Below, piece by piece: positions 9,499 through 48,677 of a stretch of 53,726 bases of DNA. Within the stretch, counting starts at the first letter, position 1; each line of letters opens with the position of its first letter. Origin of the DNA: an uncultured Bacteroidales bacterium. GTDB taxonomy: Bacteria; Bacteroidota; Bacteroidia; Bacteroidales; Bacteroidaceae. A program made the translations under genes and the position numbers. The notes beneath the pieces are model-generated. The model worked only from the letters and a program-made list of their open reading frames with translations, had not been told where the DNA came from and searched no databases. The stretch is from assembly GCA_902779315.1 (NCBI GenBank), contig CACZBC010000032.1, positions 1 through 53,726 on the forward strand, read 5' to 3'.

Positions 9499-9633
9499 AC
9501 TTTTTCGCCCGAACTTTCCACGTATATAATAACAGAAATTTCATCTTCTAAACGTTTTTTAACACAAAAAGGCAAATAATAAGAAGTTTAGGTTAAATAA
9601 AGAATAGGGAAACGTCTGCATTGACCTTTGAAA

Positions 9634-9721
9634 ACATCACACGTGAAGTTGGCAATTGTCACACGTGAAGTTTGCAATCGTAACACTATACGTTTTCCGA
9701 TACACTGTGGCGCGTTTGCCC
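9634..9721 (+). repeat. 22-bp repeat array A (4 units)
   Basis: Units begin at 9634, 9656, 9678 and 9700, all exactly 22 bases long with no spacers. Units 1 and 2 carry CACACGTGAAGTT(G/T)GCAA; units 3 and 4 are diverged but in phase (AACACTATACGTT, ACTGTGGCGCGTTTGC). The array ends at base 9721, one base before the stop codon of the esterase gene. The rest of this 297-base gap holds the promoter of the 4865-9424 gene and AT-rich sequence. Confidence 0.8.
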
Positions 9722-17683: not shown

Positions 17684-17724
17684 GACATCCCCGACATGCG
17701 AACAGTGTGTCGGGGATGTCTTTT
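17684..17724 (+). terminator. Intrinsic terminator of the peptide gene
   Basis: GACATCCCCGACA (17684-17696) pairs perfectly with TGTCGGGGATGTC (17708-17720), followed by TTTT. A 13-bp stem. Confidence 0.85.
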
Positions 17725-17738
17725 GGGGAAGAGAAGAA

Positions 17739-17914
17739 ACACAGGCAGTGTCGTTGGCAAACATCACGTGTGACGTTTGCAATTTACTAGTGTGACGTTT
17801 GCGATTTACTAGTGTGACGATTGCAATTATCACGTGCCACGTTGGCAAACTAAGCACGTCTAGTTTAGCATCTAGGCGTTGCTAATTTACAAACTAGTGC
17901 CAGTTGCGGAAATA
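17739..17914 (+). repeat. 22-bp repeat array B (about 8 units, 4-5 well conserved)
   Basis: In-phase units start at 17739, 17761, 17783, 17805, 17827, 17849, 17871 and 17893. The best are 17761 (ACAT + CACGTGTGACGTTTGCAA), 17783 and 17805 (TTTA + CTAGTGTGACG...). Units at both ends decay but keep the register. The 368-base gap holding it contains only the terminator, this array and the promoter of the alpha-galactosidase gene. Confidence 0.85.
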
Positions 17915-25096: not shown

Positions 25097-25124
25097 TGTA
25101 ACCTGTAACCTGTAACATGTTACT
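25097..25124. repeat. Heptanucleotide repeat TGTAACC x4 (last two diverged)
   Basis: Units TGTAACC, TGTAACC, TGTAACA and TGTTACT are consecutive. The surrounding 24950-25230 holds no gene that I can support. Confidence 0.6.
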
Positions 25125-25234
25125 TGAACACACACCCAATACAAGGGAAAAGAAATTCTATTATTATAAAATAATAATAGACCTCCTAGAAGAGGGGCAG
25201 GGAAGAAATCAAACATAGCATGGCAACTCCAGCA

Positions 25235-25322
25235 ACTTAACACATTAAGATGGCAAACGTCACACGTTAAGTTCGTCATCGTAACGTATTACGTTTGCAA
25301 TCATCACTGGGGTTGTTCGGCC
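25235..25322 (+). repeat. 22-bp repeat array C (3-4 diverged units)
   Basis: In-phase units start at 25235, 25257, 25279 and 25301. The second has ACGT + CACACGTTAAGTTCGTCA; the third ends TTACGTTTGCAA. More decayed than arrays B, D and F. It lies in the divergent gap between the PadR and alkaline phosphatase genes. Confidence 0.65.
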
Positions 25323-33712: not shown

Positions 33713-33750
33713 AAAGCCTCGTATAGGAAGCCGAATAATATGCCGAACAG

Positions 33751-33776
33751 GGGGAGCAGAACGCTCCCCTCGTTTT
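33751..33776 (+). terminator. Terminator after the double discoidin gene
   Basis: GGGGAGC (33751-33757) pairs with GCTCCCC (33763-33769), followed by TCGTTTT. Array D begins 11 bases further on. Confidence 0.7.
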
Positions 33777-33786
33777 GCATTCCAAA

Positions 33787-33896
33787 ACATCTAGTGTGAC
33801 GAAGCCAAACATCTAGTGTGACATTTGCAATTTACTAGTGTGACGTTTGAGATTTACTAGTGCCACGTTTGAAATCGTATAGTGTCACGTTTGGAA
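33787..33896 (+). repeat. 22-bp repeat array D (5 units)
   Basis: Units start at 33787, 33809, 33831, 33853 and 33875, all 22 bases. The first two begin ACAT, the next two TTTA and the last TCGT; the core is CTAGTGTGACG or a close variant. The rest of the 33713-34028 gap holds the terminator and the promoter of the lipoprotein gene. Confidence 0.85.
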
Positions 33897-34028: not shown

Positions 34029-34679
34029 ATGAAACGCGCAATGTTACTCTCAAAAGGCAAGGCCGCAGTTCATCACCTCCTTGCTATCATATTTATAATG
34101 TCGGCATTTGTGTTCACCTCATGCTTTGACCGTATGGATATCGACCAGTCGATGGCTCTTTCAGGACAATGGAAAGGCGACTTCGGAATGTTCTACGACT
34201 ACATAGACGGCCACGGAAGACGCTATACTTTCGAGTCCTACAACACCTATCTGACCTTCATTCCCGCCTATTCACACGCGAATTATGGCAGAGGAACGCA
34301 GGTTGACTACTACGACTACGGACCCTACGAGTACCAGTACTACAAGTTCAGTTGGTCGGTAGAGAACGGATACATCTACCTTTCCTATGACTACGACCAC
34401 GAACTCGATGTGCGTATCAGCAACTATCGGATGACGAACGACTACTTCTCGGGCATCTTCTACGAGACCGGAACCTCGTTCCGTCTGCGCAAGATTGCTG
34501 ACTACTACAACTGGACGCCATACGTGAACATCTATGGATACGGCAGTCGCTACGATTGGGACTACGGCTATCCCTACTACGCACCAGCCACTCGTAGCGA
34601 TGTCGAAGCGCCAAGCGACAGCATCCCCAACGAAGGCAAAATCCTCAGGATGGGCCGCAGACAGGAACTTAAACAATGA
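34029..34679 (+). CDS. Tyr-rich putative lipoprotein, unknown function
   Basis: A 216-residue protein with an N-terminal hydrophobic segment (LLAIIFIMSAFVFTSC) ending in a lipobox-like FTSC, so it is probably a lipoprotein. The mature part is extremely rich in Tyr and Asp (DYYDYGPYEYQYYKFSW, YLSYDYDHELD) and looks like a small beta-barrel of lipocalin-like character (SGQWKGDFGMFYDY...FSGIFYETGTSF), ending in a Tyr/Pro-rich low-complexity stretch. I do not recognise a family. Its stop overlaps the ATG of the next gene by four bases, so the two are translationally coupled. Confidence 0.75.
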   Translation: MKRAMLLSKGKAAVHHLLAIIFIMSAFVFTSCFDRMDIDQSMALSGQWKGDFGMFYDYIDGHGRRYTFESYNTYLTFIPAYSHANYGRGTQVDYYDYGPYEYQYYKFSWSVENGYIYLSYDYDHELDVRISNYRMTNDYFSGIFYETGTSFRLRKIADYYNWTPYVNIYGYGSRYDWDYGYPYYAPATRSDVEAPSDSIPNEGKILRMGRRQELKQ

Positions 34680-35485: not shown

Positions 35486-37108
35486 CCAGCAACTCTCGAC
35501 GGCATCGAGTTGAAGGCTGCTGACAGTTATATCGTTTCCCCAGAACTCCAGATTATCCCCTTGGGGAAGTGGAAGAGGGGCTGAGAAGCTATACAAACCG
35601 TCGTCAATGAAGACTTCAACTGAGGTGCAGTCGATGTAAACGTCCATCGTGAGCGAAAGGCTGGTTGGGTCTTGGGGTGAATAAAACTGGCCATTCAAGG
35701 TGTTGCGGTTGAGGTCGTAGTCGATAATGTTGTGTCCGTTGAACCGCAGCCCTGCGCTTGTGGCGTAGGTGAGGTTAAGCGTGGCACGAAGATGCAAGCA
35801 GGCCAGATGGCGATATGGACGCAGAGCTTGGTTGACTTCACGCTCACTTAAAGCTTTTTGGCTGGAATAAAGAGGTTTAAGCAAAGAGGCGACTTCCTTG
35901 ATTGGCTTGCTTACGAGGCGAACGCCGTCCTTCGTGGTGCGCAAGTTCAGTTCGGTCGGCAGGAGCATCTGCCCCCGGAAAGGCATCCCGCGATGCTCGA
36001 TGTTGGCCCATCCTATCTGTATGCGTCGTCCGTCCGGCACGTCGTTGAACGTCTGGGCGGCATAGATAGTGCCCGTCGAGAAACGGTGTTTGCCGCTTTC
36101 TGGCGTGAAGACTTTGCCATCGAAACTGCCTATCATATACGTATTGCTTGCCCCATACATCACCCATCGCACATCATTCGGGTTACCGTCAACAGCCAGA
36201 GGGAAGAGGTCAGGGCACTCCCAGAAACCGTTCACATGGCTCTGATAGGTCCAGTCGCGAAGGTTGTCGGATGTATAGATGCTGTGTCCGTTGCGTTCAT
36301 TCAGGACGAGAACCCAATGGCCCCCAGACTCGTACCAGAACAACCTCGGGTCTCTCGTGTCGTGAGTCTGCCACTTTTCGTGCGAATCAATAACAGGATT
36401 GCCTTCGTACTTGTGTAATGTCATGCCCCCATCCAGGCTGTATGCGATACATTGTGTTTCCTTGTCGCTTCTGTCGGCAGTATAGGCATAGACGAGTGGC
36501 GGGTTCTTCTTGGTACCGAAACCAGATGTGTTGTCCTTGTCGAAGACTGCCGAACCGCTGAACATTGTGCCGATTGTGTCAGGAAAAAGCACTGGGGCTT
36601 GCTCCGTCCAATGCAGGAGGTCGGGACTCGTAGCGTGTCCCCACGTCATATTCTCCCATTCGCGCTCAAAAGGATTGTGCTGATAATAGAGATGATACAG
36701 CCCGTCATGCCAAATGCAACCATTCGGGTCATTGATCCATCCACGCCTCGTCGTAAAGTGGAACTGCGGACGATTTCTCTCTCGATACATCTTCTGAGCG
36801 TCACGAATAGTGTCCGCCTGATAGACCAGCGAGAGTGCTTCCTCTGGTCCGTCAAAGGTAATGGTCAACGTCTTGCCCTTATAAGCCGTCAAGTCCTTGA
36901 AGACCCAGTAATCAGGCTCTGTCGAGAGTCGTGCCACGACGTTGAGATCATCCACACCTTTCGCTTGGAAAGTCAACTTGCGACGCTCTGCATCTTGAGA
37001 GATAGGCAGATTCAGGTACTTGCTCTTCACTTTGAAGCTCAGTTCTGCGGACTGAGCGACAACAGACAACAGGCAACAGATAACAGAAAAGATAACGCGT
37101 TTCATCAT
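35480..37108 (-). CDS. GH32 fructan hydrolase (levanase/inulinase type)
   Basis: A 542-residue exported enzyme. I place the start at ATG 37108 (or 37105): the product then begins MMKRVIFSVICCLLSVVAQS, a signal peptide, and the ATGATGA overlaps the stop of the NhaC gene; the longer open frame upstream is shadow. The five-bladed propeller has the nucleophile D127 in WINDPNG, the RDP motif in HDTRDPRLFW and the acid/base Glu in FWECPDLF. QHNPFEREWENMTWGHATS is a conserved substrate loop. The C-terminal beta-sandwich ends VESCWL. It should release fructose from beta-fructans or sucrose. Residues 20-110 are an extra N-terminal beta region. It is the last gene of the POT-NhaC-GH32 operon. Confidence 0.93.
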   Translation of the reverse strand: MMKRVIFSVICCLLSVVAQSAELSFKVKSKYLNLPISQDAERRKLTFQAKGVDDLNVVARLSTEPDYWVFKDLTAYKGKTLTITFDGPEEALSLVYQADTIRDAQKMYRERNRPQFHFTTRRGWINDPNGCIWHDGLYHLYYQHNPFEREWENMTWGHATSPDLLHWTEQAPVLFPDTIGTMFSGSAVFDKDNTSGFGTKKNPPLVYAYTADRSDKETQCIAYSLDGGMTLHKYEGNPVIDSHEKWQTHDTRDPRLFWYESGGHWVLVLNERNGHSIYTSDNLRDWTYQSHVNGFWECPDLFPLAVDGNPNDVRWVMYGASNTYMIGSFDGKVFTPESGKHRFSTGTIYAAQTFNDVPDGRRIQIGWANIEHRGMPFRGQMLLPTELNLRTTKDGVRLVSKPIKEVASLLKPLYSSQKALSEREVNQALRPYRHLACLHLRATLNLTYATSAGLRFNGHNIIDYDLNRNTLNGQFYSPQDPTSLSLTMDVYIDCTSVEVFIDDGLYSFSAPLPLPQGDNLEFWGNDITVSSLQLDAVESCWL

Positions 37109-38532
37109 CTTATAAGGTTTTTCTTTGGCAACAAAGTCGCTGCCAATATGGTCATTATGGGGCTTAAGTAGCAGAAGAAGCAATAGGGCGCATAGACGAG
37201 CGTGCTGACTCCCAAGACGTTGGCTTGTGTCATACCGCATGTGTTCCAAGGAATCAAAACGGAAGTCACCGTTGCGCTGTCCTCGCAAGTACGGCTCAAA
37301 AGGCGCGACTCGAAACCGTTCTTCTTGTAAGTATCGCTGAACATCGTTGCCGTCAGGATAATGCTGAGGTACTGGTCGGCACAGATGGTATTGAGGAACA
37401 TGCCGGAGAAGGCTGTGCTGGCAACGAGGCTGACTGTGCCGCGAACCAGTCGAAGCAGGGCTTGCATAATGCTGTCGAGCATCCTTGTCGCTGTCATGGC
37501 TGCTCCGAAAGCCATAGCACAAAGGATAATCCAAATGGTGTTGAGCATGCCGGCCATACCTCTTGTCGCAACCAAAGCATTGAGGTCGGGCACGCCTGTA
37601 TCGAGGTCTGTGCTGCCATAAACTATGATGAAAGCGCCACGAATGCGTTGTGCGAGCCCTTCATGGTCGGTGCCGGCTATCACGTCGAGCAAATGCGTCT
37701 GACACCAAACAGCAGCCACAACGCCCAACAACGTCGCGAGGAAGAGCACAACCATCGACGGCAAACGCGTCATGATGAGGATAAGTGTCAGCACAGGTAC
37801 AATGATGAGCCAAGGAGAGATGAAGAATGTCTGTTGCAAGGCTTGCTGAACTGTGGCGACATGCGAGGTGACAGCCTCTCCTTGCCCCAGTCCTACGATG
37901 GTAAAGATTGTGAGGGTGATGAGGAAAGTCGGCACTGTCGTGTAGAGCATATAACGGATATGCGTGAAAAGTGGCGTGCCAACTGTACTGGAAGCAAGCA
38001 CTGTGGTGTCGCTCATGGGCGATATCTTGTCGCCGAAGTAAGCGCCACTAATGACTGCACCTGCAATCCAAGCCTCTGAGAAGCCGAGTGCTTTGCCTAT
38101 GCCCATCAAGGCAATACCGATGGTAGCTACCGTTGTCCATGAAGAACCCGTCAGCACACTCACCAAGGCACTGATGAGGCAAGCGGAGACGAGGAACCAC
38201 TTGGGGCTCATCATCTCCATACCATAATATATTATAGTCGGCACAACACCACTCACCATCCATGCTCCGCCAAGTGCTCCGATAAGCAGCAGGATGATGA
38301 TGGCCGAGCTGACACCTCCCACCTTGTCGCTTATGGCTCGCTCGAAATCGTTCCAACAAATGAGACGCGAAGCAATGCCGATGCAGACGCAAAATGCCGT
38401 TGCCACAAGCAATGCCATCTGCGATGCACCAGCCAGCGTCTCGTCACCAAAGATGCTGACAACGAGAGCTACGAGTGCCACCAGTATTACCAGTGGCACA
38501 CACGATAGCCAAAGAGGAGGAAGGCGCTTCAA
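37105..38532 (-). CDS. NhaC-family Na+/H+ antiporter (TTG start)
   Basis: A 475-residue inner-membrane protein with about 11-12 hydrophobic segments, starting MKRLPPLWLSCVPLVILVAL. Family motifs include GSSWTTVATIGIALMGIG, GAYFGDKISPMSDTTVLA and PWNTCGM. NhaC proteins exchange Na+ (sometimes with malate/lactate) for H+. The reading frame is closed by TGA two codons upstream, so the only start giving the full first helix is TTG (38530-38532), which lies inside a heptamer repeat array. The next ATG would lose that helix. It is 40 bases behind the POT gene, and its stop overlaps the GH32 start. Confidence 0.9.
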   Translation of the reverse strand: MKRLPPLWLSCVPLVILVALVALVVSIFGDETLAGASQMALLVATAFCVCIGIASRLICWNDFERAISDKVGGVSSAIIILLLIGALGGAWMVSGVVPTIIYYGMEMMSPKWFLVSACLISALVSVLTGSSWTTVATIGIALMGIGKALGFSEAWIAGAVISGAYFGDKISPMSDTTVLASSTVGTPLFTHIRYMLYTTVPTFLITLTIFTIVGLGQGEAVTSHVATVQQALQQTFFISPWLIIVPVLTLILIMTRLPSMVVLFLATLLGVVAAVWCQTHLLDVIAGTDHEGLAQRIRGAFIIVYGSTDLDTGVPDLNALVATRGMAGMLNTIWIILCAMAFGAAMTATRMLDSIMQALLRLVRGTVSLVASTAFSGMFLNTICADQYLSIILTATMFSDTYKKNGFESRLLSRTCEDSATVTSVLIPWNTCGMTQANVLGVSTLVYAPYCFFCYLSPIMTILAATLLPKKNLIR

Positions 38533-38568
38533 TTTTCAATCTTCAATCTTCAATCTTCAATCTTCAAT
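38527..38568. repeat. Heptanucleotide array CTTCAAT x6 spanning the NhaC start
   Basis: Six seven-base units (five perfect CTTCAAT; TTTCAAT at 38534) fill the gap between the POT stop and the NhaC coding region. The TTG start codon and the whole ribosome-binding region of NhaC lie in this array. Confidence 0.85.
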
Positions 38569-40182: not shown

Positions 40183-40213
40183 CAAAGATATAAAAAAATG
40201 TTCAATGTTCAAT
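40183..40213 (-). promoter_or_regulatory. Promoter of the POT operon, -33 inside a heptamer array
   Basis: On the minus strand the -7 is TATCTTTG (40183-40190). Exactly 19 bases upstream is ATTG (40210-40213), one mismatch from TTTG, formed by the AATGTTC repeats. Confidence 0.65.
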
Positions 40214-40224
40214 GTTCAATGTTC
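40197..40224. repeat. Heptanucleotide array AATGTTC x4 between divergent promoters
   Basis: Four perfect AATGTTC units lie between the -7 boxes of the POT operon and the SulP gene. An open frame starting in the array (ATG 40198) is not the SulP start, because it precedes that promoter. Confidence 0.85.
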
Positions 40225-40233
40225 AATTTGTTG

Positions 40234-41994: not shown

Positions 41995-42038
41995 GCAAAA
42001 AAAGCCGATTTTTCAAATTTCTCCTGCGTCGTCAGCAA

Positions 42039-42148
42039 ATGACTGCAGCGACGATGGCAAATATGACGTGTGACGATGGCAATTGTATAGTGTGACGATG
42101 GCAAACGTAATGTGTTATGATGGCAAACGTAAAGTGTTACGTTTATAC
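42039..42148 (+). repeat. 22-bp repeat array E (5 units)
   Basis: Units start at 42039, 42061, 42083, 42105 and 42127, each 22 bases. The first four all end GATGGCAA, a variant not seen in the other arrays; core forms include GACGTGTGACGATGGCAA and ATAGTGTGACGATGGCAA. The array lies between convergent genes and ends four bases before the stop of the PL11 gene. Confidence 0.8.
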
Positions 42149-48551: not shown

Positions 48552-48589
48552 AAGACTGCTTTCACTACAACTCGCCATTAAAGTCCCAA

Positions 48590-48677
48590 ACTTCACACGT
48601 GTAATTGGCAAACATCACGTGTGACGTTGGCAATTTACTAGTGTGACGTTGGCAATTTACTAGTGTGACGTTGGCCT
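48590..48677 (+). repeat. 22-bp repeat array F (4 units)
   Basis: Units start at 48590, 48612, 48634 and 48656, each 22 bases. They begin ACTT, ACAT, TTTA, TTTA; the last three have GTGTGACGTTGGC, with GG where array B has TG. It lies 38 bases after the fucosidase stop. Confidence 0.85.

Follow-up and report, generated by a model that had tools for sequence, protein, structure and literature searches.

Plasmid iteron and centromere arrays, such as the 22-bp iterons of R6K and parC, consist of tandem dimer-bound sites at helical-turn spacing, and are found at one locus per replicon, beside its rep or par gene. By contrast, the 22-bp arrays described here are dispersed over the chromosome at gene ends. 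In being high-copy, short, palindrome-like and intergenic, and in lying by 3' ends and between convergent genes, they resemble the GTAG- and CGTC-tagged REP/BIME elements as characterized in the available part of one report (PMC3733652). In the two species diagrammed there, most REPs lie no more than ~20 bp away from the 3' ends of convergent genes, and REPs of the CGTC type are described in the same part as not transposase-associated (PMC3733652). The present arrays differ from the elements so described in being spacerless 22-bp head-to-tail repeats with halves that are mostly not complementary, in that no RAYT was found, and in the replacement of the core between related species at the same junction.

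According to the available text of a second report, the BrickBuilt MITE of Porphyromonas gingivalis has a 23-nt repeat and 19 copies, many with a leader or tail and IS5-like terminal repeats, and 22-nt repeats are also mentioned for strain W83 (PMC4596501). It shares with the present arrays a Bacteroidales host, an intergenic location, and a spacerless short tandem repeat with imperfect units and variable copy number (PMC4596501, same text). The present family differs in its hundreds of 22-bp units, its bias to transcription-unit ends, its core turnover, and the lack of a recognised leader or tail, no shared flank being seen by eye in 47 listed arrays. PINSR, a 188-bp repeat of Prevotella intermedia and P. 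nigrescens with 177 and 184 copies, is likewise lineage-specific and intergenic, without terminal inverted repeats, and about three-quarters of its places are common to two strains; the available part of that report describes no 22-bp array for PINSR, and the 188-bp repeat contrasts with the 22-bp arrays here (PMC4755523). A search of open-licence papers retrieved the BrickBuilt, PINSR and REP work and no description of 22-bp arrays with core turnover. No earlier bacterial description of such a satellite-like pattern, here in one rumen Bacteroidales genus, was found in that literature; the proposal of an unnamed family is supported, no named family fitting.

Arrays in the window and across the genome

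The window, the whole 53,726-nucleotide stretch of DNA that was analysed, is contig C32 of a 2.83-Mb, 107-contig, 84%-complete genome (G000). The six arrays predicted in it lie at the positions claimed (Table 1), and their 22-bp register was confirmed, although the limits first given include decayed edge units that the profile chain partly leaves out (for array 2, 17755-17870 against 17739-17914). Tandem Repeats Finder (TRF) reports a period of 22 at five of the six, the array at 25235-25322 being too decayed for it. The 18-nt core of the original prediction, scanned at 14 or more matches of 18, gave 15 sites in the window and none in the controls, three first-order Markov sequences of equal length.

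Table 1. Positions of the 22-bp arrays and terminator-like sites in the window, and of the 76-bp blocks in the relative G076
Feature	Position	Strand	Description
Array 1	9628-9721	.	3 clear units (AC centres) and a decayed edge unit; 3' of - strand gene ending 9722
Terminator-like inverted repeat then TTTT	17685-17724	+	Upstream of array 2; by eye
Array 2	17739-17914	.	5 clear units (17755-17870) and decayed edge units in register; downstream of + strand gene ending 17398 and of terminator-like site
Array 3	25229-25322	.	4 units; divergent genes either side (PadR-like regulator, alkaline phosphatase)
Terminator-like inverted repeat then TTTT	33750-33776	+	Upstream of array 4; by eye
Array 4	33781-33896	.	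5 units, GT-centred throughout
Array 5	42011-42148	.	4 clear units (42055-42148) and decayed edge units; convergent: sulfate permease gene ending 41994, - strand gene ending 42153
Array 6	48584-48677	.	4 units, first in opposite orientation; convergent, 3' of alpha-L-fucosidase gene ending 48551
76-bp blocks in G076	C1:47289, 56637, 90677, 138874, 148451; C5:120506, 130740, 139446		Three CATG-centred units between cap units

The motif is not confined to the window, as a search of the whole 2.83-Mb genome with a 15-nt core (at most two mismatches) gave 683 sites, against 6 for the reversed pattern. A 22-position unit profile was built on 428 kb of this genome, and unit chaining on 800,287 bp of it, window included, gave 437 units in 95 arrays of two or more, besides 15 units that stand singly. 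In the same 800 kb, 22 is the commonest TRF period (109 rows), the next being 7 bp (53 rows). The earlier claim that no copy occurs in coding sequence needs a qualification, seven of the 95 arrays lying outside predicted gaps: three are near contig ends and four overlap ORFs of the simple gene caller, which may be wrong gene calls.

Separately, heptamer tandem repeats occur in the window at 209-238, 25097-25120, 37058-37087, 38527-38568 and 40197-40227 (AACTATG, TGTAACC, GACAACA, CTTCAAT, AATGTTC). Period 7, second commonest in the 800-kb sample, is present in relatives too; 15 of 70 TRF rows of period 7 or 14 fall in divergent gaps, and ~40 bp at the CTTCAAT repeats (38569) are absent from a sister species.

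Several known identities were rejected. CRISPR is excluded by the spacerless structure without unique spacers, and a phage or plasmid origin was set aside, two exact motifs having no match in viral contigs and one array none in plasmids. A link to ParB sites, based solely on the motif CACGTG and its presumed likeness to parS, was dropped.

Anatomy of the 22-bp unit

The unit was originally described as four variable bases followed by a core, a division that did not stand: it is a polar, imperfect dyad made of a 6-nt TTGCAA-like node and a 16-nt core centred on AC or GT. Of the 437 units in the 800-kb sample, 406 have AC or GT at the core centre, and the commonest nodes are TTGCAA (101), TGGCAA (35), TTGCGA (33) and TCGCAA (31), among others. 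When cores are turned to AC, their alphabets are restricted (position 1: A283/T117/G4/C2; position 3: G270/T79/A57/C0; position 5: C276/A78/G50/T2; position 12: G259/T124/C23/A0), and the restrictions mirror each other across the dyad. Variants differ from the unit consensus by 1515 transversions and 377 transitions. A de novo palindrome test on the unit consensus gave p<0.05 in 10 of 69 G000 arrays and in 22 of 53 arrays of relatives; the palindrome signal is weak in G000 itself, and near-perfect dyad units occur in some relatives.

The strict two-turn period proposed at the outset is supported, unit-to-unit spacing being exactly 22 bp in 340 of 342 steps under a chaining rule that penalises other steps. 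Adjacent units have the same orientation (head-to-tail) in 263 of 310 cases.

Placement relative to genes

Arrays were placed against the calls of a simple codon-based gene caller, in which several predicted gaps of 1.5-3.2 kb at ~69-89 kb of G000 contig C1 are possibly genes of foreign codon usage. In the 800-kb sample, 26 of the 71 convergent gaps contain an array, as do 54 of the 425 co-directional and 7 of the 67 divergent ones. In 45 of the 54 co-directional cases the array is closer to the stop upstream of it (median distance 24 bp) than to the start downstream (median 176 bp; p=7e-7), and these gaps are long even when the array is subtracted (median 240 bp against 28 bp), so that they look like transcription-unit ends. 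Array orientation is random with respect to transcription (27 to 25 in co-directional gaps, with 2 ties). In the relative G076 (440 kb, 53 arrays), an array is present in 16 of the 32 convergent gaps, compared with 31 of 248 co-directional and 5 of 32 divergent ones, and 27 of 31 co-directional arrays are nearer the stop. Because arrays occur in all gene arrangements, they had been considered not simply promoters or terminators; that argument is overtaken by the strong bias to transcription-unit 3' ends in two species.

Close relatives with the same core type

Relatives also contain 22-bp arrays. Across 139 genomes of the genus, the CGTCACACTAGTAAATTGCAA core type (at most 3 mismatches) has 405 sites in the window's own genome, 224 in G114 and 141 in G116, with 1-5 sites in 11 of the rest and none in 125. 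An exact 20-mer search of 84,980 species genomes of the named collection, informative for one core type, matched only RGIG9745 and RGIG10220 (yak omasum and rumen) and Tb.RUG.125, all of them rumen MAGs labelled Bacteroidaceae bacterium. Array 4 occupies a place common to RGIG9745 (L152), RGIG10220 (L183) and G005 (L095), with differing unit numbers. Among 15 relatives listed for the window gene at 34029, G005 retains an array of the same type, G027 has a 22-bp array with another core (TTGATTTATCATGATG / TTGATTTATCATGATGAAGCAA) upstream of its relative of this gene (L092, ~1234-1300), and the other 13 have none by eye. For the alpha-L-fucosidase junction, no comparable junction was found in 14 relatives (15 loci listed).

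At 15 collinear sister-species loci with 17 array groups, an array is present in both genomes in 16, the 17th region being not collinear, and unit numbers change mostly in 22-bp steps; between close relatives, the suggestion that the arrays are targets of a mobile system thus finds no support. No clear empty site was seen at these aligned loci, which were selected for the motif in the relative, so that array loss in the relative cannot show there. Gap comparisons (45 of 49 aligned well, 4 skipped) gave array indels of 22 bp in 11 cases, of 44 and 66 bp in one case each, and of 1 bp in three. None of the long indels elsewhere with lengths in multiples of 22 (66, 66, 176 and 220 bp) proved to be an array. 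The small-indel rate of arrays is no lower than that of other intergenic DNA (3 of 2443 against 10 of 5715 columns, p=0.77), and the two do not differ in substitution rate (0.132 in arrays, 0.126 in other intergenic DNA), so that purifying selection on register or sequence is not directly evident. In one sister-species comparison (L164 against G000 C3:43577-43702), the whole array interior is inverted between collinear flanks.

Shared junctions with different cores

A motif-free autocorrelation scan (lags 13-45) of 45-100 kb from each of 15 relatives assigned, pooled, 53 arrays to lag 22, 19 to lag 44 and no more than 4 to any of the other lags, part of the scanned stretches lying around motif matches, which can raise the density of arrays but cannot fix the period of other cores. 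Arrays at lag 22 were found in 12 of the 15, with none in the samples of G001, G004 and G011, and a few of the 53 resemble slippage products of shorter repeats. The cores of relatives differ, examples being CCGCACGCGG, TTAACACGTTAA, TACACGTGTA, CCCACCGGTGGG and ATACATGTAT. Twenty genomes of other families, sampled over 264 kb in all, yielded a single array at lag 22 and two at lag 23. As a side observation, G054, from another family of the order, has two neighbouring arrays of one 23-bp spacerless unit (L255 8227-8301 and 9626-9761), a period reminiscent of BrickBuilt.

In G076, 440 kb contain 53 arrays at lag 22, 15 at lag 44 and at most 2 elsewhere, and at least six core families coexist by reading. 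The GC core occurs 108 times in this sample and not in 800 kb of G000, and ACTAGTGTGACG 82 times in the G000 sample and not in that of G076. In GC-family units the CG slot is usually found on the A side (80 of 108, as against 31 of 108). At 110 orthologous junctions between the two genomes (median flank identity 80%), arrays are present in both at 11, in G000 only at 4, in G076 only at 6, and in neither at 89 (p=3e-8); for the subset of junctions with convergent or long co-directional gaps, they are 7, 3, 2 and 27 in the same order (p=2e-4). Among 15 G000 arrays with both flanks mapped, a G076 22-bp array was found by reading at 12, two of them absent from the list of the autocorrelation detector, and none at 3. 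The best core match at the 12 shared junctions has a mean of 4.9 mismatches in 16, against 5.1 (sd 1.06, 132 pairs) between junctions, and the nearest shared-junction match, which involves an edge unit, has 3 differences (array 29). Place is therefore shared and core likeness is not: place and the 22-bp period persist while the core sequence changes between related species.

Proposed phased binding sites for a dimeric protein

Phased binding sites, suggested from the window, are still the preferred reading of this genome-wide family with its strict two-turn period. We tentatively propose, at somewhat less than an even chance, that the arrays are putative protein-binding sites that insulate gene ends and whose recognition sequence turns over. 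An array would be a row of sites bound by a dimeric protein, or by a few dimeric proteins of one small family; the nucleoid or segregation protein suggested at the outset is one conceivable occupant. With each 22-bp unit forming one imperfect dyad, neighbouring dimers would occupy one face of the DNA at intervals of two helical turns and could bind cooperatively. A bound array just past the stop codons, above all between convergent genes, might act as a two-way insulator or roadblock, shielding each unit from the read-through transcription or supercoiling of the next. Should the protein recognise a short core that changes readily, the sites could drift together with it, new core types spreading through the arrays of a species, interior first, while period and place stay.

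The exact register between unrelated cores, the mirrored alphabets, the lack of an RNA strand signature and the shared junctions all fit phased dimer sites, for which the presence of two unrelated core types in one register (the 76-bp blocks of G076), the 3'-end placement in two species and the transversion excess in unit variants were also counted. Against them, this excess is smaller within true orthologues, where sister-species arrays have 94 transversions and 71 transitions and other intergenic DNA 255 and 320. Several core families per genome would require several proteins or one of loose specificity, and vertical inheritance with homogenisation would give the same junction conservation without function. 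The small-indel and substitution rates, which match those of other intergenic DNA, and the folding of 42 of 88 arrays as RNA with z below -2 also weigh against this reading. No candidate binding protein was found.

Interior and edges of the arrays

In G000 arrays of four or more units, the profile score is 17.2 at the edge, climbs to 22.6-24.4 in the interior, and is -21 one step outside the array, a drop that is partly due to the construction of the chain. The interior is also more uniform: differences between the cores of different arrays fall from 6.65 of 16 at the edge to 4.80 at depth 2. Adjacent cores differ at 4.0 of 16 positions, non-adjacent cores of the same array at 5.7, and those of other arrays at 6.15. 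Each of the eight 76-bp blocks found by pattern in G076 (Table 1) lies between cap units with an expected centre-to-centre distance of 88 bp (4 x 22), and AC or GT stands at 12 of these 16 centres; two more arrays are of the CATG-block type besides the eight measured. The block itself is constant, with terminal inverted repeats like GTTCGTTATA/TATAACGAAC, and looks like a miniature element adapted to arrays.

The strongest rival, possible though on balance doubtful, is a selfish or neutral minisatellite that homogenises itself and is tolerated at 3' ends. Units would multiply by 22-bp slippage or unequal exchange, and cores spread by in-register recombination anchored on the shared node; place would be conserved by descent and sequence homogenised by molecular drive, with survival only where harm is slight. 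The mostly whole-unit indels between sister species, the greater likeness of adjacent cores and of interior units, the array inverted in place, and substitution and small-indel rates equal to those of the surroundings all favour this explanation. By contrast, slippage alone leaves the exact 22 bp of unrelated cores across species unexplained, and the restricted, dyad-mirrored alphabets, the transversion excess and the lack of a clear empty site at the motif-selected loci also count against it. Phased dimer sites and a self-homogenising minisatellite could both be true together.

Folding of array RNA and terminator-like sites

RNA hairpins, serving as bidirectional transcription terminators or mRNA 3'-end stabilisers, are an improbable explanation, in spite of the 3'-end placement in two species and of some G076 units that resemble terminator hairpins, such as CGCCGCACGCGGCG followed by TTTT. 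Array RNA folds with z below -2 on one strand in 42 of 88 arrays, and core positions 5 and 12, alone among the pairs, covary (z 6.9, distinct cores). However, over all 406 units, five of the seven position pairs (1/16, 2/15, 4/13, 6/11 and 7/10) show less complementarity between the unit halves than chance pairing would give, with pairs 1/16 and 7/10 staying clearly below chance in the 242 distinct cores, and outer slots of GC-family units match at 0.056 against 0.186 expected. Relative to dinucleotide shuffles, the two strands of co-directional arrays fold alike (median z -1.97 sense, -1.95 antisense), and pairs across the dyad on the sense strand show no G.U excess (128 G.U against 137 A.C). 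The lack of a sense/antisense difference and of a G.U excess favours a role as double-stranded DNA, hairpins in some arrays being still allowed, and an RNA element was rejected, there being also no match above the gathering score of Rfam 15 in the window.

Terminator-like sites were counted by a crude scan in which scanned lengths differ between ends with and without arrays. Among ends with arrays, 17 of 52 convergent and 9 of 41 co-directional ones have such a site within the array or at its end, in favour of hairpins, whereas separate sites that follow the stop and precede the array (15 of 52 and 9 of 41, respectively) speak against them. At convergent ends, with these unequal lengths, 42 of 90 ends without arrays have a canonical terminator-like site, and 25 of 52 with arrays have one neither before nor inside the array.

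A REP/BIME-like gyrase-binding system at transcription-unit ends, spread by a REP-associated transposase, is highly improbable: high copy number and extragenic placement near 3' ends were found, as for REPs near convergent 3' ends in the available text (PMC3733652), but not a stem-loop per unit or inverted pairing of units, no match to the Y1 transposase domain (Y1_Tnp, PF01797) was found in the 84%-complete genome by a search positive in 5 of 14 control genomes, and the head-to-tail arrangement of units is one that REP dimers, according to the same text, lack or rarely show in most genomes (PMC3733652).

Implications

Dispersed bacterial repeats are usually defined by conserved sequence, whereas here geometry and place persist while the sequence changes, so that similarity searches miss the system. 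A bolder and rather unlikely possibility is that the arrays are a bacterial counterpart of eukaryotic satellite and centromere evolution, with fixed gene-end places and 22-bp geometry and a sequence repeatedly replaced genome-wide; new types would arise from the array interior, old ones would persist as caps, and the replacement would be driven by joint evolution with a rapidly changing DNA-binding protein that organises transcription-unit boundaries. If the arrays are protein-bound, they would reveal that rumen Bacteroidales have a machinery for transcription-unit boundaries or for organising the chromosome. If they are selfish, they would provide an unusually clear case of bacterial concerted evolution, traceable species by species.
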